Position numbers and translations under genes: made by a program
Shown: in pieces, positions 9,360-40,554 of the stretch
How the letters are laid out: every line of letters begins with the position of its first letter
Position numbering within the stretch: position 1 is the stretch's first letter
Notes under the pieces: generated by a model
Databases searched by the model: none
What the model was told of the DNA's origin: nothing
What the model saw: only the letters and a program-made list of their open reading frames with translations
NCBI GenBank assembly: GCA_005884125.1
Contig: VAXP01000115.1
Span: forward strand, 1 to 43,062
Direction: 5' to 3'
DNA from: Actinomycetota bacterium
Lineage (GTDB): Bacteria; Actinomycetota; Acidimicrobiia; Acidimicrobiales; AC-35
DNA length: 43,062 nt

Positions 9360-11093
9360 TCACAAGCTATGTGGTCTCCAACCGCGACCCTTGCCGTCAT
9401 CCCTCACCACCGCTCCGGCGCGGGCTCGCCGGGACAACTCGGCCTCCCGGAACCAGGGCCGGAGGCGCAGGTGGACAGGAGGCAGGTGGCCGTAGACGAG
9501 CACGGCCTCGCCCGGCGGGATACGGCGGAGGGCGTCGGCCGGTGCCAACCGCCGGAGGGACGGCGACTCCGTCGTCGAGCGCGCCCCGGCCGCGTCGACG
9601 GTGGTTGAGGCGCTGAACAGCTCCTCTTCGCCGAGCAAGCGACTGACGTGCTCGAGCGTGGCGGGATCGGAGACACCGGAGAGGACGACCTTGGCCCTGT
9701 GGTTGTTGACGACGGTGGCGGCCCGGGATCCGTAGCGGGCCTCGAGTTGGGCCAGGTCCTGCCAGACGCTCACGAGCTGGATCCCGTGACCGGCGGCTGT
9801 GGCGGCAAGGCCGTCGAGGTCGGCGAGGGGCGCCACGTGGGCGGCCTCGTCGAGCACGACGAGCAGGGGCGGCTCCAGCGGGCCGGCCCCGGCCGAGGCC
9901 AACTCGAAGGCGGTGGTGACGACCTGGCGGACCACGGTCGCGAACAGGGGCTGCAGCCGTTCCTGCTCGTGGCTCGGGGCGCACAGGTAGAGGGTGTGAC
10001 GCCCACCGTCGAGGAGCTGGGCGGGATCGATCTCCGGACGCGCGGTCAGCGCGGCCACCCGGGGATCGGCGAAGGCGGCCAGGGCCATCTCGGCCGTGGT
10101 GTACACGGAGCTGCGCTGGCGGGGCTCCCGCCCCCAGCTCGCCTCGGCCGCCAGCGCCGCCTCCTCGATGCCCGCGGCCTCGAGGGCCAGGGCGGGCTCC
10201 CGCTCCTCCTGGGCATCCAGCCAGCGCACGACGTCGGCCATGGTGCGTCCGGACGTGGCCGCGGCCAGGAACAGCGGAGCCAGCAGCTTGGCCGCGGTCG
10301 CATACCAGAACTCGCCGTCGGTCAAGCCGTCGCGGCGGACCGCCCCGCCGCAGAGCCAGCTGGCCATGCGCTGAGCCCCCACCCACGTCCGGCATGACGC
10401 CAGCGGCGACCACCCGGAGCCGGGAAGGCCGGTGCTGGCCGTCGGGTCCAGGACCCACACCCGCCCGGTGGACTCGCGCCAGGCGATCGTGTCGCGCAGC
10501 AGATCGGTCTTCACGCTCGTCGCCAGCACGGGCCCCTCCCACTCGAGCAGGGCGGGCACGGCGAAGCCGGTGGTCTTCTGGGTCTGCGTCGGGCCCACCA
10601 CCAGCACCGACTGCCGGGGCTCGGCGGCCAGCAGGGCCCGCCCGCACCGGCCCAGGGTCAAGCGGGCCGCCACCGGGCGGTCGACGACCAGCGCGGCCAC
10701 GTCGGCCCGGCCGCCCCACCCGGCCGCCGCCGGCGGCTCCGGGGTCCACCGCCGCCACGACCGGGCACCGCCCCCCCGTCGCCGGGTCAGGGCCAGGGCC
10801 TCGGACGCCCTGTGCAGCACGGTCCTGGCTCCGAGCACCAGGGCGGCTGCGGCCAGGGCCATGGTGGCCGCCGTGGCGTAGAGGGCCACGGCGCCGGGGA
10901 CGAGCGGGCGCGCCCCAGCCGGCCAAGCGGAACCGGGCCGGGACGGACGGCCGAGCACGGCCAGGGCCAGGCCCGGGGCCCGGCCGGGGTCGAGCCCCGG
11001 CCACCTGCCCCGCACCAGGCGGCCGGCCGCCTCGCCCGCGGCCCACAGCCACAGCCCCAGGCCGACCCAACCGGCGGCGGCCAGGGCGGCCAT
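9360..11093 (-). CDS. VirD4/TraG-like type IV coupling ATPase (TraM-recognition domain)
   Basis: SVLVVGPTQTQKTTGFAVPALLEWEGPVLATSVKTDLLRDT and LLVVLDEAAHVAPLADLDGLAATAAGHGIQLVSVWQDLAQLEARYG; start MAALAAAGWVGLGL at 11093. Confidence 0.85.
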   Translation of the reverse strand: MAALAAAGWVGLGLWLWAAGEAAGRLVRGRWPGLDPGRAPGLALAVLGRPSRPGSAWPAGARPLVPGAVALYATAATMALAAAALVLGARTVLHRASEALALTRRRGGGARSWRRWTPEPPAAAGWGGRADVAALVVDRPVAARLTLGRCGRALLAAEPRQSVLVVGPTQTQKTTGFAVPALLEWEGPVLATSVKTDLLRDTIAWRESTGRVWVLDPTASTGLPGSGWSPLASCRTWVGAQRMASWLCGGAVRRDGLTDGEFWYATAAKLLAPLFLAAATSGRTMADVVRWLDAQEEREPALALEAAGIEEAALAAEASWGREPRQRSSVYTTAEMALAAFADPRVAALTARPEIDPAQLLDGGRHTLYLCAPSHEQERLQPLFATVVRQVVTTAFELASAGAGPLEPPLLVVLDEAAHVAPLADLDGLAATAAGHGIQLVSVWQDLAQLEARYGSRAATVVNNHRAKVVLSGVSDPATLEHVSRLLGEEELFSASTTVDAAGARSTTESPSLRRLAPADALRRIPPGEAVLVYGHLPPVHLRLRPWFREAELSRRARAGAVVRDDGKGRGWRPHSL

Positions 11094-11176
11094 GCGCTCC
11101 GCCGAGCAGTCAGCCGCGGGGCGACCTCGCCCCCTCAGCGAAGCCCTGCGACCTTGACCCCGCCGACGCGAGGTCG

Positions 11177-12424
11177 TCACTCCTGCACCATCCGGGAGTC
11201 GGTGTCGACGAGGGTCCTCTCCCCGGGAGCCAGCCGGTGCTCGACGAGGAACGAGCGCTGTCCGACCTTCCAGAGGGCGATCGCCCTCCCCAGGCGAGGG
11301 AGGAGCGACACCTCGGTCGAGCTCAGCCCCAGGGCGTCGGCCGTGCCCGCCAGCTCGCCCGGCGGCTGGGCGTAGACGACGCGCGTCTCCGAGTCGGCCA
11401 GCAGGCCTTGAGCGAGGGCCAGGGTCTCGGACCCCTCGGCGCCCGCGCTGCGCAGATCGGAGACGCGGTGGAGCACGGCGACGTGGGCCACGCCCAGGGC
11501 CCGGGCCAGCTTCCACGACGACCGGAGCCAGCGGGCGATGCCGAGGTGCGTGAGGATGGCCCACGCCTCGTCCACCACCACGATGCGAGGACCGCTTCGC
11601 TCCCCGACCAGGGCCGCCTGCAGCCACGCCGCCGCGCAGGTCATGAGGATGCCCAGCGCCCCGGAGTCGTAGACGGCCGACAGGTCGAGCACCACGATCC
11701 GGGCTCCCATGTCGATGCGCGGCGTTGTGGGGCCGTCGAACATGCCCCGCAGGTCGCCGTGGACCAGCCGGCGCAGCTCGAGGGCGACCTCGCGGCCGTC
11801 GGCCGCCAGCTCCTCCTTCGTCGTCCGCACGCTGCGCGCCGCCTCCGGCGCCGGGTCGAGCATGGCGGTCACGGCGCGGGGCACGGTCGGGACGCCGCCG
11901 GCGACGGCCACGTCCTCCACGGCCAGCTCCAGGGCGGTGCGCTCGGCCGGCCGCAGACTCCGGCCAAGGGAGGCCTCCGACAGGGAAGCGAGAAGCTGGG
12001 CCCCGCGCCGGGACCCCTCCCCCTCCACCTGCCGGCCCGAAGCGGCAACGAGGTCGAGGGGATTGAGGCGGACGCCGCCTCCCGGGCTCAGCTTCACCGG
12101 CGCCACCCCGTGCAGGCGGCCTAGGACGCCGTACTCCCCCTTGGGATCGACGATCCACGCCCCGCGGCCGAAGGCGGCCTGGCGCCAGAGATAGCTCTTG
12201 ACCAGAGCGCTCTTGCCCCGGCCGATCTGGCCCATGACGACCATGTTCGGGTTGGTGAGGGCGCCGCTGGCGTAGAGGGCGAAGGGGTCGTAGCTGAAGG
12301 CCCCGCCCAGCAGGTCCCGTCCCACGTACACACCCGGCGTCCCCAGCCCGCCCTCGGCGACAAAGGGGTAGGCGGCGCCCAGGTGGGCGGTGGTCAGGCG
12401 GTGGGCCGGCGGCGGCCTGCTCAC
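11177..12424 (-). CDS. VirB4-like T4SS ATPase
   Basis: VVMGQIGRGKSALVKSYLWRQ (Walker A), WIVDPKGEYGVLG, RIVVVDEAWAIL (Walker B); GTG start overlapping the TGA of the upstream gene (GTGA, 12421-12424). Confidence 0.85.
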   Translation of the reverse strand: MSRPPPAHRLTTAHLGAAYPFVAEGGLGTPGVYVGRDLLGGAFSYDPFALYASGALTNPNMVVMGQIGRGKSALVKSYLWRQAAFGRGAWIVDPKGEYGVLGRLHGVAPVKLSPGGGVRLNPLDLVAASGRQVEGEGSRRGAQLLASLSEASLGRSLRPAERTALELAVEDVAVAGGVPTVPRAVTAMLDPAPEAARSVRTTKEELAADGREVALELRRLVHGDLRGMFDGPTTPRIDMGARIVVLDLSAVYDSGALGILMTCAAAWLQAALVGERSGPRIVVVDEAWAILTHLGIARWLRSSWKLARALGVAHVAVLHRVSDLRSAGAEGSETLALAQGLLADSETRVVYAQPPGELAGTADALGLSSTEVSLLPRLGRAIALWKVGQRSFLVEHRLAPGERTLVDTDSRMVQE

Positions 12425-13899
12425 GCCAGGCCCCGGGCCAGGGGCAGCGTCCAGGAGAAGGCCTCCGCCTGCTGGCCGTACAGCCGGCGCAGGTCGAGGT
12501 GGGCCCGGGCGGCCGCCACCTCCAGCTCGCTGCAGGCGGCGGCCAACTCCTCCGATGATCGGGCCGAGGCGGTGGCGTAGCCGGAGTACCGGTACAGGGC
12601 GTGACCGTCGGCCAGCTCGGTCTCGCGGATGAGCACCTCCTCCTGTTCCCTCCGCCGCCGCGCGCTGGTGATGAAGCCGCCACGACGGCGGAGCTCGTCG
12701 TCGGCCATGTGCGCGGTGCGGGCCGCTTCCGCTTCTCGGGCTGCCCGCCTGGCCGGGACGGGCTCGAGCACCAGGGACACGGTGCGCCGGTGCTGCGCGC
12801 CCAGGAGCAGGGGCGTGAGGAACTCGGGCCCCACGTCGACGCGAGGCCACTCCGCGATCCAGTAGCTGGCGTGGTACCCGCCGTCGCAGCGGTACATGGA
12901 CCACCCGCCGTCGCCGGCCATGGGCACGCCGCCCAAGGCGCCGACCTGGCCCCTGCCTCTCGTCCCGGCCCTCGCCAGCGCGGGGTCGGCCATCTCCCGC
13001 AGGAGGCGCCGAAGGGCTCCGGCACCCAGCGGCCCTTCGCTCTCGATGTCGGTCGGCGCCAGCGCCGCCTCCAGCGCCCGCAGCTCGCGGGCAACGACCT
13101 CGGGTGCCCCGCCCGCTTCCCCCCTGGAGCGGACTCGCCGCCGGTGGACGGCGAGGGCCAGGAAAGCTTCGTGCCGCCGCGCGGCCGGCCCCGCGCCCTC
13201 GACGAGCTCGCGGTACGACGCCGTAGCGTCCGCCGGCGCGCCGGGCGACCCCGCCGCCTCCAGATGGCGCAGAAGGTCGTCGGCGTCACCGGGTACGACG
13301 CGCAGGACCCACTGGGCCCGATGCACGAGGGTGCCCTCGCGGGCCAGGCCGGAGAGCACCGCGGCCCACGCGTCCAGCCTTCTCCTCTGCTCCTCCCCTC
13401 CCACCAGGGCGAAGCCCGAGGCCCGCACGGCGAGGACGCCCACGAAGGTGCCGCACTGGCGGTCCTGCACGATGGCCATGCGCCTGCCGCCCAGGCCAAC
13501 GGGCGGGACCAACACCTCGCAGCCCGCCAGGGGTCCCCGGCCGGCGGAGGCGTCGGTCGTGCCACCCCCGGGCCCAGGCGGGGGCGAGCCAACCAGGCAG
13601 GCCCGGTCCACGTGCCGGTGTCGCCCGGCGAGACGCGCTCGGGCCCAAGACCATCCGACCGGGGCCCATTCCTCGGTCGTGCGTCCCTTCACCGGCAACC
13701 AGGCGACGGCCGCACCCCCCGCAGCCAGGGAGGCGGCCAGCACGGCGCCGAGGAGGGGACTCCGCGCAGCACGCAGGGCCGCGACGCCAGCCACCAGGCC
13801 CGTGGTCGCGGCCACGAGCTGGCCGGCCCTCACACCGGCGATGACGCCCCTCCGTTCCAGAGGGGCGAACCGGTAGCGGCGGCCCTCGGCGGTCGTCAC
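12421..13899 (-). CDS. SCO6880-like type IV secretion-associated protein
   Basis: VTTAEGRRYRFAPLERRGVIAGVRAGQLVAATTGLVAGVAALR (two N-terminal TM segments), GWSMYRCDGGYHASYWIAEWPRVDV, upstream of the VirB4-like ATPase. Confidence 0.7.
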   Translation of the reverse strand: MTTAEGRRYRFAPLERRGVIAGVRAGQLVAATTGLVAGVAALRAARSPLLGAVLAASLAAGGAAVAWLPVKGRTTEEWAPVGWSWARARLAGRHRHVDRACLVGSPPPGPGGGTTDASAGRGPLAGCEVLVPPVGLGGRRMAIVQDRQCGTFVGVLAVRASGFALVGGEEQRRRLDAWAAVLSGLAREGTLVHRAQWVLRVVPGDADDLLRHLEAAGSPGAPADATASYRELVEGAGPAARRHEAFLALAVHRRRVRSRGEAGGAPEVVARELRALEAALAPTDIESEGPLGAGALRRLLREMADPALARAGTRGRGQVGALGGVPMAGDGGWSMYRCDGGYHASYWIAEWPRVDVGPEFLTPLLLGAQHRRTVSLVLEPVPARRAAREAEAARTAHMADDELRRRGGFITSARRRREQEEVLIRETELADGHALYRYSGYATASARSSEELAAACSELEVAAARAHLDLRRLYGQQAEAFSWTLPLARGLA

Positions 13900-29186: not shown

Positions 29187-30176
29187 TCAGCGGGCGGGCT
29201 CCGGAGGCGCGGAGCCTGCCTGCTGTAGGGCCCGCTCGACGTCGGCCCACGTGAGCACCTCGTCGCCTGCGGCCGGGGTCCCTTCGTGCGATGCCGCGGC
29301 GTGAGCCGCGGCCCGGGCCGCCGCCCTCTCGGCCCGCTCGGTCCGCTCCGACTCCGCCGTCCAGCGGAAGAAGATCACCACGATCACCGACCAGATGAAG
29401 GCGGCCTCGCCCACCTTCATGAGCGCGGCAGCCAGCTGCTGGTCCTCGACCACGTCGAAGCCCAGGGCGTGGGGGACCCGGGCGTAGAACGAGTAGACGG
29501 GCCCCTGGGCGAAGGTGAGGAAGGAAGCGGGCACGGTGGGCAGCACCGTCTGCAGGAACAGGTAGAGCATCCGCAGCGGGGCCGACATGGTCGGGAACTC
29601 GGGGAGACGGTTCACCACCGGGAACCACATGAGCAGCCCCGACGCGAACAGCAGCAGGTGGGCGAAGAAGTGGGAGGCGTCGTGCTCCAGGGTGAAGTTC
29701 ACCACCGCGGGCCAGTGGGACAGAGCGAAGACCACGTTGAACAAGATGCCCGCGCAGAAGGGCCGGGCCAGGGTGCGGACCGCGTCCCCCAGCCGGCGCG
29801 GCCTCAACATCCATCGGGTGAGCCATCCGGGCATGCCCACGAGGAGCAGGGGCGGGGCCACCAGGGTGATCACGATGTGCTGGAACATGTGGACCGAGTA
29901 GAGGTAGCGCTCGCCGATGTCGTGCACGGGCCAGTCGGCGACGGCCCACAAGAGGGCCACCCCGCCCAGGAAGCAGGCGACCTGACGCCTGGTCGCCACC
30001 GGCGTCCCCTCCGGCACCTGCCTGGGCCCCAGCCTGGCCAGGGCCAGCACGTACAGGGCCGCCGCCGCCGTGAAGATGGCCCAGACCTCGGGGTGGGCGT
30101 GGTAGCGCCAGGGGTTGACCCGCCCGGCCGGCCCCCCGGCCAGCGGGGCCAGGGCCGCCACCGGCGCCAGGCTCAC
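29187..30176 (-). CDS. ctaG: cytochrome c oxidase assembly protein CtaG (caa3-type)
   Basis: VHDIGERYLYSVHMFQHIVITLVAPPLLLVGMPGWLTRWML; HWPAVVNFTLEHDASHFFAHLLLFASGLLMWFPVVN. Confidence 0.85.
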   Translation of the reverse strand: MSLAPVAALAPLAGGPAGRVNPWRYHAHPEVWAIFTAAAALYVLALARLGPRQVPEGTPVATRRQVACFLGGVALLWAVADWPVHDIGERYLYSVHMFQHIVITLVAPPLLLVGMPGWLTRWMLRPRRLGDAVRTLARPFCAGILFNVVFALSHWPAVVNFTLEHDASHFFAHLLLFASGLLMWFPVVNRLPEFPTMSAPLRMLYLFLQTVLPTVPASFLTFAQGPVYSFYARVPHALGFDVVEDQQLAAALMKVGEAAFIWSVIVVIFFRWTAESERTERAERAAARAAAHAAASHEGTPAAGDEVLTWADVERALQQAGSAPPEPAR

Positions 30177-30183
30177 CGCCCGC

Positions 30184-30582
30184 TCACTTGACGAAGACCC
30201 CCAGGGTGGTCAGGTAGGCCATGTACACGAACACGGCGAGGATGAACCCCCCCAGGAACAGCCGGCGCAGTAGCCGGTTGTCGAACTTGAGGTGCATGAA
30301 GTAGAGGGCGACGAAGCTCCCCTTCACCAGGGCGAAGACGAGCAGGAGCGAGTTCGACGCGGTGCGCTGGAGCTTGAGGTAGTACAGGGCCACCTCCACG
30401 GCGGTGACCACGGCCAGGAAGACGGCGATGCGGATGTACTGGGCGTCGGTGGGGTGGGGGCCGTGCTCGTCCTCAGCCAGGTGGGGTGGGGGCTGGACCT
30501 GATGGAGCCCGGGCTCTGGCGTAGCCGTGGCCGCGCCCGAGCCGGGGTCGGTGGTGGTCGTGGACGACTCGGCGTCGCTCAT
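30184..30582 (-). CDS. cytochrome c oxidase subunit IV family protein
   Basis: YIRIAVFLAVVTAVEVALYYLKLQRTASNSLLLVFALVKGSFVALYFMHLKFDNRLLRRLF. Confidence 0.88.
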   Translation of the reverse strand: MSDAESSTTTTDPGSGAATATPEPGLHQVQPPPHLAEDEHGPHPTDAQYIRIAVFLAVVTAVEVALYYLKLQRTASNSLLLVFALVKGSFVALYFMHLKFDNRLLRRLFLGGFILAVFVYMAYLTTLGVFVK

Positions 30583-30598
30583 CGGACTCCTCCTCCAC

Positions 30599-31261
30599 TC
30601 ACGGGCCCGGCAGCGTGTGGAGCACGCCAGGGTGCGTGGGCGAGGGGATCAAGTAGATCACGGTGAAGATGACGATCCACACCAGGTCGACGAAGTGCCA
30701 GTAAAGCCCGGCGATCTCGACGACCTCGGACCGCTCCTTGGTGAGCCGGCCCCGGAGGGACAGGTTCCAGAGGGAGAGCAGCATCACGATGCCCAGGGTC
30801 ACGTGCACGCCGTGGAACCCGGTCAGCACGAAGAAGCTGCTGCCGAAGAGGTTGGTCTTGATGGTGAGGCCCTTGCGGATGAAGGAGGTGAACTCGTAGA
30901 CCTGCCCGGCGATGAAGCTGGAGCCCAGCAGGGCGGTGGCCAGCAGCCAGATGCGGAGGCGGCGGTAGTCGCCCCGCTGGATCGACGCCAGGGCCAGGAC
31001 CATGGTCAGCGAGCTCATGAGGAGCACGAACGAGCTGATCGACGTGTAGGGGATGTCGTAGATCTGTTTGGGGTTGGGGCCGGTGATGCTCCGCCCCCGG
31101 TAGAGGATGTAGGTCGAGATGAGGGCGCCGAAGAGGAGGCACTCCGAGCCCAGGAAGCACCACATGGCCAGCTTCTCGTTGGAGACGCCCGTGTTGGTGA
31201 TGACCACGTGAGAGTCGTCGTGGCCGGCCAGGGCAGGCCCGGTGATCGCCGCGTCGGTCAC
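30599..31261 (-). CDS. ctaE: cytochrome c oxidase subunit III (canonical)
   Basis: FLGSECLLFGALISTYILYRG, FVLTGFHGVHVTLGIVML, GLYWHFVDLVWIVIFTVIYLI; GTG start overlapping the ctaD stop. Confidence 0.93.
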   Translation of the reverse strand: MTDAAITGPALAGHDDSHVVITNTGVSNEKLAMWCFLGSECLLFGALISTYILYRGRSITGPNPKQIYDIPYTSISSFVLLMSSLTMVLALASIQRGDYRRLRIWLLATALLGSSFIAGQVYEFTSFIRKGLTIKTNLFGSSFFVLTGFHGVHVTLGIVMLLSLWNLSLRGRLTKERSEVVEIAGLYWHFVDLVWIVIFTVIYLIPSPTHPGVLHTLPGP

Positions 31262-33516
31262 GGTTGCGTCCCTCCTTCCGGCGCCGGCGGCGCCTCGGGT
31301 GGAGTTACTGATCCTCCGTCGCCGCCCGCGGCGCTCGGATCGCCGCCCGAGGGGGGTGCCTCCCCGCTGGCGGCACCTGCGGGCACCTGGCCCGAGCCCG
31401 ACGCCTCTCCGCTGGCGGCACCTGCGGGCGCCTCGCCCGAGGCCGACGCCTCTCCGCTGGCCGGAGCCTCTCCGCCGGCGGCCGGCTCGGCGCCCGCTTC
31501 CAGGGCCTGGGGCTCCGGGCCGGCGCCCACCAGGGCCGGCTCCCGGTGCTCGTCGGGGGCGTGGTCCAGGGCCTCCTCCTCGGGATCGGGGGGCTCGGTG
31601 GAGGGCTCCAGCCCCCACGCGTACAGGCCCGTGAACAGGACGATGACGCCCAGGAAGGCGATCACGTAGTTGGTCACGTCGTCCCGGCCGTAGATCATCC
31701 CGAAGCCGATGATGGGCAGACCCGTGGCCGCCACCAGGGGCCAATACGACGGCGAAGGCAGGTGGACGTGCTCGCCCCTGGCGTCCCCGTACTCGGTGGC
31801 TATCTGCTCGCCGGAGGCGCCCGGGCGGGGCATGAGCCGGCCGTCCTCGTCCTCGTCGTACTTGCGGTGCCAGAACTCGTCCAGGGAGTGGACCGTCGGG
31901 ATCTTGGCGAAGTTGTACGCCGGCGGGGGCGAGAGGGTCATCCACTCCAGGTTGCGGGCGTCCCACGGGTCAGTGGGCGACTTCTCGCCCCTCCTGGTCG
32001 TGATCCAGACGTTGTAGATGAACACCAGCGTGGCCAGGGCGATGACCATCGAGCCCATGGTGGCCACCGCGTTCCAGAACCCGAACCCGTTGGCCTTGTC
32101 GTAGGTGTAGATGCGCCGGGGCATGCCCTGGAGCCCGAGGAGGTGCATGGGCCCGAAGGTCAGGTTGAACCCGATGAAGGTGAGCCAGAAGTGCAGCTTG
32201 CCCAACCCCTCGTGCAGAACCCTGCCGAAGATCTTGGGCCACCAGAAGTAGAGGGCGCCGAAGAGGCCGAACATGGAGCCGCCGAAGAGCACGTAGTGGA
32301 AGTGGGCCACCACGTAGTAGGTGTCGGTCTGCTGCCGGTCGTGAGGGGATACGGCGTGCGTCACCCCCGACAGGCCGCCGATGGTGAACATGGCCACCAG
32401 CCCGATGGCGAACAGGCATGCCGTGCGGAACCGGATCGACCCCCCCCACATGGTGCCCAGCCAGTTGAAGATCTTCACCCCGGTGGGGACGGCGATGAAC
32501 ATGGTGGACAGCGAGAAGGCCGAGACGGCCACCGGCCCGAGTCCCACCGAGAACATGTGGTGCACCCACACGCCCCAGCCCATGAAGCCGATGGCGATGC
32601 CCGAGAACACCATCACCGGATAGCCGAACAGGGGCTTGCGGCAGAAGACGGGAAGGATCTCCGAGACGACCCCGAAGGCGGGAAGGATGAGGATGTAGAC
32701 CTCGGGATGGCCGAACAACCAGAAGAGGTGCTGCCAGAGGACCGGATCACCCCCCGCGGCGGGGTCGAAGAAGTGGGACCCGAAGTTGCGGTCGAACATG
32801 AGCAGGAACAGGGCGATGGTGATCACGGGCATGGCGAAGAGCAGGAGGAACTGGGAGACCAGCACCATCCAGGAGAAGATCGGCATGCGCATGAGCGTCA
32901 TGCCCGGCGCTCGCAGGTTGAGCATGGTGACGATGAGGTTCACCGCGCTCACGGTGGAGGCGATGCCGGTGATGAGCAGGCCGAAGACCCAGAAGTCGAT
33001 GTTGTGGCCCGGGTTGAAGGTCAGGCTGGTGTTGGGGGCATAGCCGAACCACCCGCCGTTGGGTGCCCCGCCCAGGAAGAAGCTTGAGTAGAGGAGGAGC
33101 CCTCCCATGAGGAAGGCCCAGTAGCTGAAGGCGTTCAATCGGGGAAAGGCCACGTCTCGAGCACCCAGCTGGAGGGGCATGATGAAGTTGGCGAAGGCGG
33201 CCGACAACGGCATGATGACCAGGAAGATCATGGTCGTGCCGTGCATGGTGAACAGCTGGTTGTAGGCGTCGGCCGACAGGACCTTGCCGTTGGGCTGGGC
33301 CAGCTGGATCCGAATGAGCAGGGCCTCGACCCCTCCGACGAGGAAAAACAGCAGAGCGGTGGCGCCGTAGAGGATCCCGATGCGCTTGTGGTCGATGGTC
33401 GTGAGCCATCCGACGAACCCCTTGGTCGTCCTGGGCCGCTTCAGCAGGGGCGGCTCCCGCGGCGCCTGGGGCGACTCGGGGGGGGCGGCGGCGACGGGCT
33501 CGAGCGTGGTGGTCAT
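31258..33516 (-). CDS. ctaD: cytochrome c oxidase subunit I (canonical, A-family) with extra TM region and Ala/Gly/Ser/Pro-rich C-terminal tail
   Basis: LFTMHGTTMIFLVIMP, WLFGHPEVYILILPAFG, VWVHHMFSVGL, VPTGVKIFNWLG, VAHFHYVLFGGSMFG: all heme/CuB ligands, Tyr and K-channel Lys present. Confidence 0.97.
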   Translation of the reverse strand: MTTTLEPVAAAPPESPQAPREPPLLKRPRTTKGFVGWLTTIDHKRIGILYGATALLFFLVGGVEALLIRIQLAQPNGKVLSADAYNQLFTMHGTTMIFLVIMPLSAAFANFIMPLQLGARDVAFPRLNAFSYWAFLMGGLLLYSSFFLGGAPNGGWFGYAPNTSLTFNPGHNIDFWVFGLLITGIASTVSAVNLIVTMLNLRAPGMTLMRMPIFSWMVLVSQFLLLFAMPVITIALFLLMFDRNFGSHFFDPAAGGDPVLWQHLFWLFGHPEVYILILPAFGVVSEILPVFCRKPLFGYPVMVFSGIAIGFMGWGVWVHHMFSVGLGPVAVSAFSLSTMFIAVPTGVKIFNWLGTMWGGSIRFRTACLFAIGLVAMFTIGGLSGVTHAVSPHDRQQTDTYYVVAHFHYVLFGGSMFGLFGALYFWWPKIFGRVLHEGLGKLHFWLTFIGFNLTFGPMHLLGLQGMPRRIYTYDKANGFGFWNAVATMGSMVIALATLVFIYNVWITTRRGEKSPTDPWDARNLEWMTLSPPPAYNFAKIPTVHSLDEFWHRKYDEDEDGRLMPRPGASGEQIATEYGDARGEHVHLPSPSYWPLVAATGLPIIGFGMIYGRDDVTNYVIAFLGVIVLFTGLYAWGLEPSTEPPDPEEEALDHAPDEHREPALVGAGPEPQALEAGAEPAAGGEAPASGEASASGEAPAGAASGEASGSGQVPAGAASGEAPPSGGDPSAAGGDGGSVTPPEAPPAPEGGTQP
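31361..31480 (-). repeat. 45-bp (15-codon) tandem repeat, two near-identical units plus a decaying third, in the ctaD tail
   Basis: Units 31361-31405 and 31406-31450 (tcyccgctggcggcacctgcgggc...gacgcc), partial from 31451. Confidence 0.8.
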
Positions 33517-33565: not shown

Positions 33566-34657
33566 TCATTGCAGCGTGTCCAGGAAGGCGACGAGCTTGG
33601 TTATCTCGTCCTCGCTCAGGTTCAGGTTGGGCATGTCGGCGCCCGGCTTCTCGGCGGGAGGGTCGCGCAGCCACCGCCGCAGGTTGTTGTCGTTCATGTC
33701 CAGGATCGACCCCGCGAACACACTGCGCTGGCGCAGGTGGGTGAGGTCGGGTCCGAGCGTGCCCGCGCTGTAGCCCTCGACCGAGTGACAGCCTGAGCAG
33801 CCCTTCTGCCTGAAGAGCGTGGCTCCGGCGGCGGCATCGGGGTTGGCCTCGGGGTCGGGAGTCACGAAGGTGGTGCCGTTGGTGGTGTTGGCCGCGACCC
33901 ATCTCTCGAAGTCGCCCCGGGCGTGGGCCACCACGCGGAGGCGCATGTTGGCGTGGGACAGGCCGCAGAACTCGGCGCACTGTCCGTAGTAGGTACCCGG
34001 GTGATCGGCCTGGATGGTCATGTGGTTGATCCGGTTGGGGATGGCGTAGATCTTTCCCGACAGCTTCGGGGGCCAGAAGTTGTGGATCACGTCGATCGAT
34101 GTGAGGGAGATGTCGATGGGCTGGTCCACCGGTATGTGGAGCTCGTTGGCGGTGACCACGTGCAGGCCCGGGTAGTCGTACTCCCACCACCAGCGATGGC
34201 CGGTGACGTTGACGTGCACGACCCCGGGACCGGTCGGGCGCCTGCTGACGTCGAAGATCGTCTTCACCGTGAACAGGCCCACCACGGCCAGCATGAGGGC
34301 GGGGAGGATCGTCCAGGTGGTCTCCAGGCGGGTGTTGCCGTGGACCTGGCGGGGCCGGTCCTCGTCCGACCGGGCCCGGAAGCGGATCACGGCCACGACG
34401 ATCAGCGCCTCGACCAGCACGAACACGAAGGCGGCCGCGCCGAACACGGGCGTGATCAGGTGGTGGAGCTTGCGGGCGACCGGCCCCTGCGGGTCGAGGG
34501 CATCCTGGCGCAGCTTGGTGTGGGAGCAGGACGCCAGAACGACGGTGGCGGCCAGGGCCATGACCGCGGTCAGCGGGCGGCGGCCCGACCTCGGGCGCCG
34601 AGGGCACCCGACCGGGGGCGTCCCGCTGGCCCGTCCGCTCGCGCTGGGATCGCTCAT
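33566..34657 (-). CDS. ctaC: cytochrome c oxidase subunit II fused to cytochrome c (caa3-type), lipoprotein
   Basis: Lipobox VVLASC; CuA site YYGQCAEFCGLSHANM; C-terminal heme motif GCSGCHSVEGYS with axial Met GADMPNL. Confidence 0.95.
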   Translation of the reverse strand: MSDPSASGRASGTPPVGCPRRPRSGRRPLTAVMALAATVVLASCSHTKLRQDALDPQGPVARKLHHLITPVFGAAAFVFVLVEALIVVAVIRFRARSDEDRPRQVHGNTRLETTWTILPALMLAVVGLFTVKTIFDVSRRPTGPGVVHVNVTGHRWWWEYDYPGLHVVTANELHIPVDQPIDISLTSIDVIHNFWPPKLSGKIYAIPNRINHMTIQADHPGTYYGQCAEFCGLSHANMRLRVVAHARGDFERWVAANTTNGTTFVTPDPEANPDAAAGATLFRQKGCSGCHSVEGYSAGTLGPDLTHLRQRSVFAGSILDMNDNNLRRWLRDPPAEKPGADMPNLNLSEDEITKLVAFLDTLQ

Positions 34658-34790
34658 GGGAATGGCCGTCGCATGTCTCGATCGGGCAGGCGCCGCCCCG
34701 CGGCCCCGCCCACCACGCTGGACGGGCCAGAGCATTCCCCACCCCGGCCGGGCGCGGCAAAAGGGGCCGGCCCCGCCGGGCGCAAGCCCG

Positions 34791-35381
34791 TCACCGGGCG
34801 CCCAGCCGGGCCAGCCAGCCGTTCAGCCTTCCGGTGCCGAGTCCCCCCATCACGGTGCCCAGCACCCGGCCGTCGGCGGCCACGAACACCGTCGAGGGCA
34901 TTCCCCGGAGCCCGAACCGGCCCGCCACCGACGCGTCGGGATCGGCCGCGGCCGGGTAGGCGACGCCGGCGTGGTCGAGCATGGCCAGGGCCCCGCTGCG
35001 GGAGTCGCGCACGGCCACGCCGAGGAAGGCGACCCGGCCCCCGGCGCCCCGCTCGGCAGCGGCCAGCACGGGCAGCTCCCGCCGGCAGGGGTCGCACCAG
35101 GAGGCGAAGAAGCTGACGACCGTGGGTCGCCCGGGCGGCACCAGCAGCCCGACGCGCCCGTCGGGCCGGCGCAGGTCGCCGGCCGAGAACGACGGAGCCA
35201 GGGTCGGGCCCGCGGCGCTGCGCCCGGCCGCGCTTCCGCCTGACGTCGCCGGGCTGCGCCCGAGGACCAGGGGCAGGGCCACGGCCGACAACCCCGCGAA
35301 GGCGACAGTCAGCGCCAGGCGGCGGGTCCTGGGCCCGCGGGAGCGAACGGCAAGGGCGTGGGGCGCGGCCACGTCAACCAC
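34791..35381 (-). CDS. TlpA-like membrane-anchored thioredoxin-family protein
   Basis: TVVSFFASWCDPCRRELPVLAAAE; N-terminal TM. Confidence 0.88.
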   Translation of the reverse strand: MVDVAAPHALAVRSRGPRTRRLALTVAFAGLSAVALPLVLGRSPATSGGSAAGRSAAGPTLAPSFSAGDLRRPDGRVGLLVPPGRPTVVSFFASWCDPCRRELPVLAAAERGAGGRVAFLGVAVRDSRSGALAMLDHAGVAYPAAADPDASVAGRFGLRGMPSTVFVAADGRVLGTVMGGLGTGRLNGWLARLGAR

Positions 35382-36387
35382 TGACGATCAGCGTCCCTCG
35401 CATGTTGGCGTGGAAGTCGCACGCGAACAGGTACGTGCCCGCGGGCGGAGGCGGGGGGTGATAGGTGATCTGGCCCCGGTCTATGGGCTGGCCGTTGAAC
35501 AGAGGCCGGCCCTGGCCTCCGTCCGGGGTCTGGGCGTAGAAGGCCACGTTGTGGAAGGTGCCCGTGTCACGATTGCGGAAGACGACCACCTCGCCCCGCG
35601 CCAGGGTCATCTCGGTGAGGTCGAACTTGATGTTGCGGGCCGTGATGCGAACGGTCCCGGGCCCACCGGGGACCTTCTCGATCCGGCGCTCGCCCCTGGT
35701 GGCACCGGCGATGCCGGCGCCCCCGACGGACAGCACGGCCATGACGACCAGGGCGGTCAGCGCCGAGCGGCCCAGCCCGGGCCTCGACGCCAGGACGAAG
35801 AAGGCCACCAGGAGGCTCACGGCCAGGACGAGGGCCACGCCCACGGCCGCCTTCTCGGGCACGGTGAGCAGGATGCGGGACACGCCGATGGCGATGGAGG
35901 CGGCCAGGGCGAGCATGGCGAAGGGGAGGGCGGACGGGACCAGGAGGCGGTAGCGGACCCGCTCCCGCACCCGGGGGGTCCAGCTCGGGTGCTCACGCCA
36001 GGACTGGCCGAACCACCCCGCGGCGCCGACCCCGGTCACGACCAGGGCCAGGATCATGATCACCGCGCCCGTGGCCGCGCCCACAGCGCCCAGCCCCAGC
36101 CCCATGGCGCACAAACCGGGGAACATGCTGCCCTGGGCCGGGACCCCCGGCGTCGACGCGCTGGCCGAGGGCGGCGGCGCGTCGGCCGGCACGGCCGGGG
36201 CCGCGTCCCGGCCCGCCAGAGCGGCCACGGCCACCGCCACGCCCGCAGCCACCAGACCCTGGGCGACCAGCAGCACCGTCCCCGAGCTCTCGCCCACGGC
36301 GATCTCGAAGCCGAGCCCGATGGCGATCCCCAGCCCGGCCACCACGGCGAAGACCTTTGTGGCGGGGTTCAGCAGCGTGCTCGGCAC
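35374..36387 (-). CDS. polytopic membrane protein with C-terminal type-1 copper cupredoxin domain
   Basis: Several hydrophobic segments, then VRITARNIKFDLTEMTLARGEVVVFRNRDTGTFHNVAFYAQT...GTYLFACDFHANMRGTLIV (His...Cys..His...Met). Confidence 0.82.
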   Translation of the reverse strand: MPSTLLNPATKVFAVVAGLGIAIGLGFEIAVGESSGTVLLVAQGLVAAGVAVAVAALAGRDAAPAVPADAPPPSASASTPGVPAQGSMFPGLCAMGLGLGAVGAATGAVIMILALVVTGVGAAGWFGQSWREHPSWTPRVRERVRYRLLVPSALPFAMLALAASIAIGVSRILLTVPEKAAVGVALVLAVSLLVAFFVLASRPGLGRSALTALVVMAVLSVGGAGIAGATRGERRIEKVPGGPGTVRITARNIKFDLTEMTLARGEVVVFRNRDTGTFHNVAFYAQTPDGGQGRPLFNGQPIDRGQITYHPPPPPAGTYLFACDFHANMRGTLIVSG

Positions 36388-36399
36388 CGCGCTCCCTCG

Positions 36400-36990
36400 C
36401 TACTTGACGATCGGGTAGAGCGTGAGGGCGACCAGGACCCACGCCACGACGACGAACTCCCAGTACCACCCCACCACCCGCACCGGCTCGGGCTCGGACC
36501 CGCTGGCCTGCCCGCCCAGGACGCGGAGCAGGGCGCCGAGCAGGAAGAGGATGCCGACGCCGGCGTTGATGCCGGCCAGGATCACCATGGCGTAGAAGAC
36601 CGTGCCATAGGGGGTGGCCACCCCGAAGCCGAGTCGCGACACCAGGTACCAGTCGAGGTCGACGAAGGCGATGCCCATGCCGATGGTCAGGCCCAGGGCG
36701 GCGATGGCCTGCCTGCGCTCGTCCCTGCGCACCGCGGACCAGGCCCACTCCACCAGGGGCGCGGACAGGACCAGGGTGAAGGTGGTCATCACGCCCAGGT
36801 AGTTGTCGAGCTTGACCCCCTTGGGGGGCAGCGACTGGTAGTGGGCCAGGGCGCGGTAGGCGGCGATGAGGGCGGCGAAGGCCATCATCCCGCCCAGGGC
36901 CAGGATGAGCACGGCCAGGGTGGCCACGTTGCGGGGCCGGCTGGGGGCGCCCGACGGCAGGGCCGGGGTCGCCGCAGTGGTCGCTGTCAC
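36400..36990 (-). CDS. degenerate heme-copper oxidase subunit III-like protein
   Basis: ILALGGMMAFAALIAAYRAL, FYAMVILAGINAGVGILFLLG, GWYWEFVVVAWVLVALTLYPI; aligns by eye to canonical subunit III but lacks its conserved Glu/His residues. Confidence 0.75.
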   Translation of the reverse strand: MTATTAATPALPSGAPSRPRNVATLAVLILALGGMMAFAALIAAYRALAHYQSLPPKGVKLDNYLGVMTTFTLVLSAPLVEWAWSAVRRDERRQAIAALGLTIGMGIAFVDLDWYLVSRLGFGVATPYGTVFYAMVILAGINAGVGILFLLGALLRVLGGQASGSEPEPVRVVGWYWEFVVVAWVLVALTLYPIVK

Positions 36991-38639
36991 GCCGCTCCTC
37001 CGGCCGGGCCGGCCTGGGCCGCCCGCAGGTCGGCCAGGGGCTGGGCGGAGCGGATCTCGGGCAGGGCGTCGAAGTTGGCCGGCGGGGGCGGGGAGGTGGT
37101 GGCCCACTCCAGGGTCATGCCCTGGTAGGGGTCGCCCGGCGCGTCGGACCGGCGCCAGGCCGCCGCCAGCGACGACAGGGCGAAGAGCAGCATCCCCAGC
37201 AGGACCATGCCCCCCCCGGCCGCGGCCAGGCCGTGCAGGGCGCGCAGGCTGTGCCTGGCATAGCTGTCCACGTGCCAGGGCATGTGCCGGTAGCCCAACA
37301 CGTACTCGGCCACGCCGACCACGGCGAAGCCGCCCAGCACCAGCAGGAGCTGGAGCACCCCCAGCGCCGTCGACAGCCGCCGGCCGAACAGCTTCGGGGC
37401 CCAGTGGTGCACCGCACCCAGGGCCAGGAGGGTGGGCGCCCCGAAGAGGACCACGTGGAGCTGACCCGTCGACCAGGCCGTGCCCGCCCGCACGCGCGCC
37501 GCGGGGGCGATGATGGCCGCACCCGCACCCAGGGCCAGCAGCAACACCGCACCGGCGAGTGGCCCCCCCCGCCCGCTCGCCAACCACAGCAGGACCGACA
37601 CGGCCACCGGTCCGGCCGTGAGCGCCGTCAGCCACGTGGAGGTGGGCAGCACCACCGCCGCGCTGGCGCGTCCCGGACCAGCGGCCCAGACGGCGAAGCT
37701 GAGTCCGGCGAAGGCGATCAGGGCGGCCCGGGCGGTGGTGAGGTCGACCAGAGGCCGCCGGAAGTGGGTGGAGACGATGTCGCCCGCCGCGCCCAGGCCC
37801 GGGAGGAGGAGGACGAAGGCCTCGGGGCGCCCGAACAGCCAGATGGTGTGCTGCCACACGGCCACCCCCGCCTTGTTCGAGGGCGAGAAGAAGGTGCCCC
37901 CGTAGCGCTGGTCGAGGTAGAGCAGGGTGAGGCCGCCCAGGAACACGGGCGTTGCCAGCACCACGACCGAGCTGGTGGCGAAGCTGGCCCAGCTGAACAG
38001 GGGCACCCGGGCCAGCGTCATGCCCGGGGCCCGGAGCTTGAGCATGGTCACGATCAGGTCGCCTGAGGCGAGGACGGAGGCCAGCCCCACCAGGAAGAGC
38101 CCGCCGATCCACAAGCTGGTCGCGGCCCGGTCGGCCCGGCTCAGGCCCTGCACGGCCGCCCAGGGCTGGCTCAGGGTTATGCCCCCGTGGGAGGGGGTTC
38201 CGGCCAGGTAGCTGGCCAGGAACACGACCCCGCCCACGACGTACAGCCAGGTGGCGAAGGCGTGGAGCCGGGGAAGGGCGAGCCGGGCCGTCCCGATCTG
38301 CAGGGGGAGGATGTAGGTGGCCAGCCCCAGCCAGAAGGGCCCCAGGAACAGGACGGCGGTGGCGGTGGCGTGGAGGGAGAGGAGCTCGCCGTAGCGGCTC
38401 CCGACCACGTTGGTGTCGGGGGCGGCCAGCTGGGCCTGCAGGAGCTCGCCCATGACGATCCCCAGGATCAGCAGGAGGGTGGAGGTCCCCAACAGCACCA
38501 GCCCCAGCCGCTTGTGGTCGGCGGTGCCGACGGAGCGCGGACCGGCGTCCGGGGCACCACGGACCCCGCCGGGCTGGGCGGCGGGCGCAGACGAGTCCAG
38601 GACCCCGGCCCCTCCCGGCCGGGTCTCGGTGACGGTCAC
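36987..38639 (-). CDS. degenerate CtaD (heme-copper oxidase subunit I) paralog lacking CuB and heme a3 ligands
   Basis: LLSLHATATAVLFLGPFWLGLATYILPLQIGTARLALPRLHAFATW; VWQHTIWLFGRPEAFVLLLPGLGAAGDI; FAVWAAGPGRASAAVV; TGQLHVVLFGAPTLLALGAVHHWAPKLFGR. GTG start at 38639 overlapping the ctaB stop. Confidence 0.9.
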   Translation of the reverse strand: MTVTETRPGGAGVLDSSAPAAQPGGVRGAPDAGPRSVGTADHKRLGLVLLGTSTLLLILGIVMGELLQAQLAAPDTNVVGSRYGELLSLHATATAVLFLGPFWLGLATYILPLQIGTARLALPRLHAFATWLYVVGGVVFLASYLAGTPSHGGITLSQPWAAVQGLSRADRAATSLWIGGLFLVGLASVLASGDLIVTMLKLRAPGMTLARVPLFSWASFATSSVVVLATPVFLGGLTLLYLDQRYGGTFFSPSNKAGVAVWQHTIWLFGRPEAFVLLLPGLGAAGDIVSTHFRRPLVDLTTARAALIAFAGLSFAVWAAGPGRASAAVVLPTSTWLTALTAGPVAVSVLLWLASGRGGPLAGAVLLLALGAGAAIIAPAARVRAGTAWSTGQLHVVLFGAPTLLALGAVHHWAPKLFGRRLSTALGVLQLLLVLGGFAVVGVAEYVLGYRHMPWHVDSYARHSLRALHGLAAAGGGMVLLGMLLFALSSLAAAWRRSDAPGDPYQGMTLEWATTSPPPPANFDALPEIRSAQPLADLRAAQAGPAGGAA

Positions 38640-39529
38640 CGATGCAGCACCAGCTGATCGAGGGCCATGGCCGAGAAGAGCAGCGTGACGTAGGAGATCG
38701 AGTACCCGAACAGCCGCATGGCTCGCTGCACCGTCGCCTCCCGCTGCAGCTGGAGGGCGTGGTGCAGGAACAGCGCACCCAGAACCAGAGCCGCGCCCAG
38801 GTAGATCAGGCCCATGCCCGCCACCGGCGCCAACACCAGCGAGCAGGCCCAAAGGGCGATGGTGTAGCCCACGATCCGGCGTGCGGTGCTGGCGAAGGAG
38901 GCGACCACGGGCAACATGGGGACCTCGGCCGCGGCGTAGTCGTCCCGGTAGCGCACGGCCAGGGCCCAGAAGTGGGGCGGGGTCCAGACGAAGATGATGG
39001 CGAAGAGCACCAGGGGGGCCAGGCCCAGGCTGCCCGTCACCGCCGCCCACCCGACGAGCACGGGCACGGCTCCGGCGGCGCCGCCTATGACGATGTTCTG
39101 GGTGGACGTGCGCTTCAGCCACAGGGTGTAGACGAACAGGTAGAAGAGGGTGGCCGCCACGGCCAGGGCCGCGCTCAGGGGGTTGACCAGGAGCCACAGC
39201 TCGACGAAGGCCAGGGCTTCCAGGACCACCCCGAAGGTCAGCGCGGCCCGGGCCGTGAGCACTCCGGTGACAAGCGGGCGACCCTGGGTACGGCGCATGA
39301 GCCGGTCGATGTCCCTGTCGGCCACCATGTTCAGGGCGTTGGCGCCTCCCGCGGCCAGCGAGCCCCCCACCAGGGTGGCCAGCACCAGCCATCCCGAAGG
39401 CAGGCCGCGCGCCGCCACCACCATCGTCGGGACGGTGGTGACGAGCAGCAGCTCGACGATCCGGGGCTTGGTCAGCGCCACGTAGGCACGGACCCGGCCC
39501 CCGATCGTCGTTGGGACCGCCGGGGCCAC
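38636..39529 (-). CDS. ctaB: protoheme IX farnesyltransferase (heme O synthase)
   Basis: VALTKPRIVELLLVTTVPTM, GGANALNMVADRDIDRLMRRTQGRPLVTG. GTG 39529 preferred (TAGTGT-N8-GTG); the ORF track starts at GTG 39541. Confidence 0.93.
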   Translation of the reverse strand: MAPAVPTTIGGRVRAYVALTKPRIVELLLVTTVPTMVVAARGLPSGWLVLATLVGGSLAAGGANALNMVADRDIDRLMRRTQGRPLVTGVLTARAALTFGVVLEALAFVELWLLVNPLSAALAVAATLFYLFVYTLWLKRTSTQNIVIGGAAGAVPVLVGWAAVTGSLGLAPLVLFAIIFVWTPPHFWALAVRYRDDYAAAEVPMLPVVASFASTARRIVGYTIALWACSLVLAPVAGMGLIYLGAALVLGALFLHHALQLQREATVQRAMRLFGYSISYVTLLFSAMALDQLVLHR

Positions 39530-39537
39530 GGCGCGTG

Positions 39538-39543
39538 ACACTA
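39538..39543 (-). promoter_or_regulatory. -10-like hexamer TAGTGT, 8 nt upstream of ctaB GTG 39529
   Basis: Minus strand TAGTGT-cacgcgcc-GTG. Confidence 0.45.
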
Positions 39544-39584
39544 CGTCCGCGCCTCGGGACGGACAAAGCCACCCGGTGGGACCG

Positions 39585-39590
39585 TAGGAT
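39585..39590 (+). promoter_or_regulatory. -10-like hexamer TAGGAT, 7 nt upstream of ctaA GTG 39598
   Basis: TAGGAT-cacggcc-GTG. Confidence 0.5.
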
Positions 39591-39597
39591 CACGGCC

Positions 39598-40554
39598 GTG
39601 CCCAGGGTGCGCCTGTCAGCCGCCGCCTACAGGCGCATCACCGCCCTGGCCGCCGTGGCCGTGGGGGTGATCATCGTCACCGGCGGGGCCGTGCGCGTCA
39701 CCGGTTCGGGCCTGGGATGCCCGGACTGGCCCACGTGCGCCCGCAACCGGGTGGTGGCGCCGTGGGAGTACCACGCCCTGGTCGAGTTCGGGAACCGGGC
39801 CGTCACCGGAGCGGTCTCCGTCCTGGTGATGGCGGCCGTCCTGGGCTCGCTCGTGCGCCGCCCCCGGCGGCGGGACCTGGTGGTGCTGTCGTGGGGCCTG
39901 GTCGCGGGCGTGATCGCCCAGATCGTCCTGGGCGGCCTCACCGTGCTCTTCAAGCTGGCGCCTCCGTTCGTGATGGGCCACTTCCTGCTGTCCATGGCGC
40001 TCCTGGCCGACGCCGTCGTGCTCCACCACCGGGCCGGGCTGCCCGACGGGGCGTGGGAGGCCCGGCCCCTGGTCGCGCCGGGCCAGGCCCGGCTGGCCCG
40101 CCTGGCCCTGGGCGCCACGGCCGTGGTCGTCGTCCTGGGGACGGTGGTGACCTCCTCCGGTCCCCACGGGGGCGACGTCCGGGCCAAGCGCCTCTCGTAC
40201 ACCGTGCACGACACCGCCCGCGTCCACGGCACCGCGGTGGTGGCGCTGCTCGTGCTCACGGTCGCGCTGGTGTGGTGGCTGCACCGCTCGGGGGCGGCGC
40301 CCGCGGTCCAGCGCCGCTCCAGGCTGTTCGTCGAGGTGCTGGCCGCACAGGCCGCGGTGGGCTACGTGCAGTACTTCACCCGCATCCCCGCCGCCCTGGT
40401 GGCCGTGCACATCGGAGGAGCCGCGGCCGCCTGGTCCGCGGCCCTGTGGCTGTGCTGCGGGCTGACCCGGGCCGTCCCGGCCGCAGACGGCGCCGGGGAC
40501 GCGGGCACCGCCGGGCCGGCCACGGCCCGGGCGGGCGTGCTCAGCCGGGTCTGA
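39598..40554 (+). CDS. ctaA: heme A synthase (COX15/CtaA)
   Basis: VRVTGSGLGCPDWPTC, VEFGNRAVTGAVSVLVM, SYTVHDTARVHGTAVVALL, VAVHIGGAAAAWSAAL; GTG start at 39598. Confidence 0.92.
   Translation: MPRVRLSAAAYRRITALAAVAVGVIIVTGGAVRVTGSGLGCPDWPTCARNRVVAPWEYHALVEFGNRAVTGAVSVLVMAAVLGSLVRRPRRRDLVVLSWGLVAGVIAQIVLGGLTVLFKLAPPFVMGHFLLSMALLADAVVLHHRAGLPDGAWEARPLVAPGQARLARLALGATAVVVVLGTVVTSSGPHGGDVRAKRLSYTVHDTARVHGTAVVALLVLTVALVWWLHRSGAAPAVQRRSRLFVEVLAAQAAVGYVQYFTRIPAALVAVHIGGAAAAWSAALWLCCGLTRAVPAADGAGDAGTAGPATARAGVLSRV

Follow-up and report, generated by a model that had tools for sequence, protein, structure and literature searches.

Cytochrome bd oxidases offer a described case, CydB, of a cofactor-poor relative of a catalytic subunit that is encoded in one operon with the active enzyme. 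Across the heme-copper oxidase superfamily, by comparison, we know of no conserved catalytically dead subunit I, and no description of one was found in the open-access literature. Among the proteins that accompany heme-copper oxidases, the assembly factors, including Caa3_CtaG, have been reviewed (PMC9145763), and the passages of that review considered here make no mention of a conserved dead subunit I; membrane cupredoxins and TlpA have been reported in the oxidase systems of iron oxidizers (PMC8239418). Here we analyze a locus that encodes, beside a canonical caa3-type oxidase, a subunit I paralogue that has lost its catalytic residues, together with two divergent partner genes.

A subunit I paralogue within the caa3 operon

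The window (the whole stretch of 43,062 nucleotides analyzed) carries on its minus strand ctaC (33566..34735), encoding a caa3-type subunit II with CuA and cytochrome c domains, a canonical ctaD in which all six histidines, the tyrosine, the lysine and the arginine pair are present (31258..33516), ctaE (30579..31241, start not fixed), ctaF (30184..30582, COX4_pro) and ctaG (29187..30176), for the Caa3_CtaG assembly factor. Upstream on the same strand lie the gene for the subunit I paralogue (36987..38639; GTG start, 550 aa and a stop), hereafter dead ctaD; dE (36400..36990), encoding a divergent CtaE-like protein or pseudo subunit III of 196 aa; cup (35374..36387), whose product of 337 aa joins a CtaF (subunit IV)-like transmembrane part to a further transmembrane domain and, at the C terminus, a type-1-like cupredoxin; and tlp (34791..35381), for a TlpA/ResA-like thioredoxin with a CxxC motif. 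The heme O synthase gene ctaB (38636..39541, minus strand) precedes dead ctaD, and ctaA, encoding heme A synthase, is divergent upstream on the plus strand (39511..40554, start codon not fixed).

A GTGA overlap joins the ctaB stop to the dead ctaD start, so that translational coupling is kept in the window, and the TGA stop of dead ctaD in turn overlaps the GTG start of dE. The reading frame contains no internal stops; the description in the earlier note of a full-length frame coupled to ctaB was thus confirmed on the minus strand. The protein matches the COX1 Pfam family (PF00115) with 215 bits, as compared to 531 bits for the intact CtaD of the window, and its AlphaFold2 model, built on a 14-sequence alignment, has the COX1 fold (pLDDT 77.2, pTM 0.82), with mycobacterial and corynebacterial CtaD in the top Foldseek ranks (TM 0.81, E 1e-20). 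Pfam, AlphaFold2 and Foldseek all point to the 12-TM COX1 fold, and dead CtaD is a genuine COX1-fold protein devoid of an O2 site. As the paralogue clears the Pfam cut-off for COX1, automated counts of terminal oxidases in Acidimicrobiales are inflated; an order-wide PF00115 scan did not separate the CtaD types.

Residues were called in an alignment of dead CtaD with 48 caa3 CtaDs, the canonical one encoded in the window among them. Both low-spin heme histidines are kept, namely H90 in helix II (codon 38370..38372, minus strand) and H395 in helix X (codon 37455..37457, minus strand). Conversely, the residues expected of a catalytic subunit I (CuB histidines, cross-linked tyrosine, heme a3 histidine, K-channel lysine and D-channel aspartate) are missing: the three CuB positions hold arginine, alanine and glycine, the first of them (R271, codon 37827..37829, minus strand) being lost in all homologues, the tyrosine position holds phenylalanine, and that of the heme a3 histidine holds glutamine (Q393, codon 37461..37463, minus strand). 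The propionate arginine pair is likewise absent, and the E286-type D-channel glutamate remains glutamate. The losses at CuB, the tyrosine, the K-channel lysine and the arginine pair, and the retention of both low-spin ligands, had all been claimed from the sequence beforehand, and every one of these residue claims holds in the alignment. Of the 178 positions invariant among the 48 caa3 CtaDs, the window protein retains 76 (43%), so two kept histidines in one sequence are, by themselves, weak evidence.

The genome to which the window belongs encodes two further CtaDs, each with all six histidines, and two cytochrome b-type genes. In a second intact CtaD of this genome (G000 C1 1019-6000; L001, L160), the K-channel lysine is replaced by glutamine, and a cytochrome b gene lies approximately 3 kb away. 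Within the window, a long open reading frame (9360-13592, minus strand) contains a type IV coupling protein (TraG/TraD-like) domain.

Distribution, selection and stepwise loss of the cofactor sites

Homologues were searched for across the order in 59 genomes, each representing one family, and their neighborhoods were fetched. A single-sequence collection scan gave zero matches; a profile scan recovered homologues. In a FastTree tree, 56 dead CtaDs form one clade with a support of 1.0, apart from all canonical CtaDs, as 36 had done in another tree; its named members are Acidimicrobiales/Actinomycetota MAGs, which makes an uncultured Acidimicrobiales bacterium the very probable source of the window. 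Full-length cup, used as the marker of the module formed by dead ctaD, dE and cup, was present in 88 of the 120 Acidimicrobiales genomes sampled (~73%). The sampled genomes of other orders of the class gave at most partial matches, and the three loci inspected there (L122-L124) each carry a single intact ctaD without a dead one.

The usual gene order is ctaB-deadD-dE-cup-(tlp)-ctaC-D-E-F-G, with tlp at the position after cup only in the branch of the window. In all 48 loci that could be checked on their contig stretch, an intact caa3 ctaD is found 1.2-7.7 kb downstream of dead ctaD on the same strand, and a caa3-type CtaD was detected in none of the 17 genomes, among the 59, that lack the module (best match 607 bits, versus ~880 or more), so that in the sampled Acidimicrobiales the module co-occurs with caa3. 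One genome (G024; L069 6800-10121), with 6% contamination, carries dead ctaD and dE followed by a cut cup and then unrelated genes, and lacks a caa3 CtaD as well as downstream caa3 structural genes, which possibly reflects decay of the module following loss of caa3. This case and the co-occurrence agree in fitting a module that is useful solely alongside caa3; block inheritance of one operon could, on the other hand, yield much the same co-occurrence and synteny.

Cofactor sites were scored in 60 dead CtaDs aligned with canonical CtaDs. A basal set of 17, the window included, was picked by the presence of the heme pair and of a cupredoxin-bearing cup, and holds all 13 near relatives of the window save L071. 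Both low-spin histidines are found in 17/17 basal members, the set being defined by having both, and these members retain on average 44% of the canonically invariant positions, with 16% fully kept. Among the 43 other members, the helix II histidine occurs in 23% and the helix X histidine in 12%; in the clade as a whole, the low-spin pair is missing from about two thirds of the proteins. The CuB site is absent throughout the 60 sequences, with no CuB histidine in any of the 17 basal members; in L038, L041 and L127, a lone histidine falls on a CuB column but is poorly aligned, belongs to no HH motif and was left uncounted. Neither the K-channel lysine nor the D-channel aspartate was found in any of the 60, and at one of the propionate arginine positions the basal set has histidine in 12/17 and arginine in 2/17, that is, a basic residue in 14/17.

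The heme a3 histidine is present in 10 of the 17 basal members (L054-L058, L060 and others) and in 0/43 others. Its replacement by glutamine, as reported in the earlier note, is therefore true of the window but atypical of its near relatives, most of which retain histidine. Read on the tree, these patterns put the loss of CuB first, with the low-spin pair and the a3 ligand disappearing later, the latter in a patchy manner; the one-heme pattern of the window is a snapshot of this stepwise series. The heme-less derived members have a distinct set of conserved residues of their own. Heme binding as a conserved function of the whole family was rejected, as the low-spin histidines are lost in most of the clade; the one-heme protein proposed earlier thus stands as regards the missing O2 site and the action of selection, but not as regards the low-spin site, which is not family-wide.

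Dead ctaD has dN/dS values of 0.05-0.24 in close pairs within the genera of its relatives (the species of the window has no close relative among the genomes compared), and canonical ctaD values of 0.08-0.13 in the two closest pairs measurable for both genes. In such pairs the value for dead ctaD is up to about 4 times that for canonical ctaD, the slower-evolving of the two, although dS estimates are rough because of high GC and saturation. Moreover, new motifs, QPQ[VI][YF] and FGAxAQ, are conserved among dead CtaDs. Retention rather than random decay, as had been proposed, is well supported, as homologues share the CuB loss and dN/dS lies well below 1; the comparison of homologues suggested at the time returned one clade of intact-frame relatives under purifying selection. 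One copy (L048 7228-8708, genome G025) is split over two frames, reflecting either a MAG error or a local pseudogene.

The partner genes dE and cup

The dE protein matches the COX3 Pfam family with 42.5 bits, CtaE models scoring far below the cut-off, and it is conserved at the same operon position across loci. In profile searches, the N-terminal part of the cup protein matches both CtaF proteins and the extension found at the C terminus of CtaD, and the short open reading frames matched by the same profile were CtaF-like on reading. Its cupredoxin domain (35383..35655, minus strand) carries an H..C-x2-H-x2-M pattern, and the set H279, C323, H326 and M329, invariant in the basal alignment, has the composition of type-1 (blue) copper ligands, indicating a putative copper site.

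The cupredoxin domain is confined to basal, mostly heme-keeping branches, including that of the window: it is present in 17 of the 19 members that have the heme pair, as against 2 of the 35 that lack it (table 17/2/2/33; Fisher 6e-10, uncorrected for the tree). By parsimony, heme pair and cupredoxin are both ancestral, with 5 and 2 changes, respectively. Strict co-loss of the two was rejected, given that L059 and L063 have the heme histidines without cupredoxin and L071 and L080 show the reverse, and these four exceptions indicate that the heme pair and the cupredoxin are separable.

In outgroup classes, ctaD occurs once, in intact form, and the C-terminal part of cup is placed after ctaG. From its gene content, the module looks like a duplicated ctaD-ctaE-ctaF-X block, which was missed when dead CtaD was treated as a lone protein in the earlier note: the module combines a subunit I-like, a subunit III-like and a subunit IV-like/cupredoxin component. 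In other actinobacterial classes (L109-L121), the gene after ctaG encodes a membrane protein that in some cases includes a cupredoxin, and a tlp-like gene sometimes comes next; the membrane protein represents an unnamed caa3-linked family related to the second transmembrane domain of cup.

Explanations for the module and comparison with known systems

The best explanation, to which we assign a probability of roughly 0.5, is that the module is a duplicated, dead set of oxidase subunits I, III and IV that has been kept to serve caa3 as a structural partner or in its assembly. In an ancestor of Acidimicrobiales, part of the caa3 operon would have been duplicated long ago, providing further genes for proteins like subunits I, III and IV, and the IV-like copy would have been fused to a cupredoxin-bearing membrane protein such as that found after ctaG in other actinobacterial classes. 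CuB would have been lost first from the copy, making O2 reduction impossible, and the pseudo-oxidase module would have been kept to work with the real caa3 encoded beside it, its most likely role being that of a structural partner or of a platform for assembly. Erosion would have continued with the heme a3 ligand, the cupredoxin and the low-spin heme in different lineages, while the basal branch of the window would combine a predicted bis-His heme site with a type-1-like copper site, where single-electron transfer may be possible. Any of the cofactor sites can disappear without loss of the gene, its place or its neighbors, so the function common to the family should not depend on chemistry, and a structural or assembly partnership is the simplest account of this persistence; whether a permanent subunit or a chaperone is involved cannot be told from operon position. 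In a tentative extension of this scheme, the duplicated core of subunits I, III and IV may have become the obligate non-catalytic half of a pseudo-symmetric complex, in which basal members retained a cupredoxin-to-heme wire.

That the module acts in the basal branch as a redox-active wire or sensor with one heme, whose copper-heme path would feed caa3, oxidize quinol or a periplasmic donor, or sense redox state, seems rather unlikely. It is in line with the heme histidines of the 17 basal members, the invariant H/C/H/M set of basal cup, the basic residue at the propionate arginine position and the association between heme pair and cupredoxin; nevertheless, most of the clade keeps the genes without heme ligands or cupredoxin, which would imply a lost function or a kept remnant in the derived branch, and the sites are separable, as seen in the four exceptions. 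Moreover, no electron acceptor site is known, and the genome already carries two cytochrome b-type genes.

We consider it doubtful that the module is a transient relay of heme A or Cu for caa3, acting beside CtaA/CtaB and the TlpA-like protein without being a subunit: the loss of heme and copper ligands in most members means that such a relay cannot be the family-wide function, even if dead ctaD is coupled to ctaB, adjoins ctaA and tlp and lies upstream of ctaC, and even if a cup relative follows the gene of the caa3 assembly factor CtaG in other classes (PMC9145763). A neofunctionalized membrane protein unrelated to respiration, placed in the operon by chance, would agree with the distinct conserved residues of the heme-less members, but is improbable with caa3 genes alongside in every testable locus and a damaged module in the sole genome without caa3 (G024). 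Finally, a pseudogene remnant or sequencing artefact, which the missing catalytic residues, the rapid evolution of dead ctaD and the frameshifted MAG copy might suggest, is extremely improbable and was rejected for the family on account of dozens of full-length intact copies, dN/dS well below 1, the new conserved motifs and the coupling kept in the window.

The proposed structural or assembly partnership with caa3 can be compared with several known systems. Dead CtaD shares with type A heme-copper oxidase subunit I (CtaD/COX1) its fold (TM 0.81), 28-31% identity, both low-spin histidines and many structural proline, glycine and arginine positions, its closest structures being CtaD of the mycobacterial and corynebacterial bc1-aa3. 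Unlike CtaD/COX1, it is without the CuB histidines, the a3 histidine, the K-channel lysine, the D-channel aspartate and the arginine pair, and consequently oxygen reduction by the window protein is excluded. Caa3_CtaG, TlpA/ResA and membrane cupredoxins are assembly-related genes in the same operon (PMC9145763, PMC8239418) but, unlike dead CtaD, none is a subunit I homologue. The actinobacterial CtaF family (PF12270, Cyt_c_ox_IV) is matched by the N-terminal part of cup at profile level, the single-sequence Pfam score not being significant, and cup differs from CtaF by its fusion to a second transmembrane domain and a cupredoxin. Because copies that bear heme and copper sites and copies free of cofactors form a series within one order, it would be possible to test directly which features of an oxidase serve structure or assembly and which serve chemistry. 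Although CydB belongs to another superfamily and is a proven stoichiometric subunit, whereas the partnership of the dead module is presumed, both are cofactor-poor structural relatives of a catalytic subunit kept in its operon.
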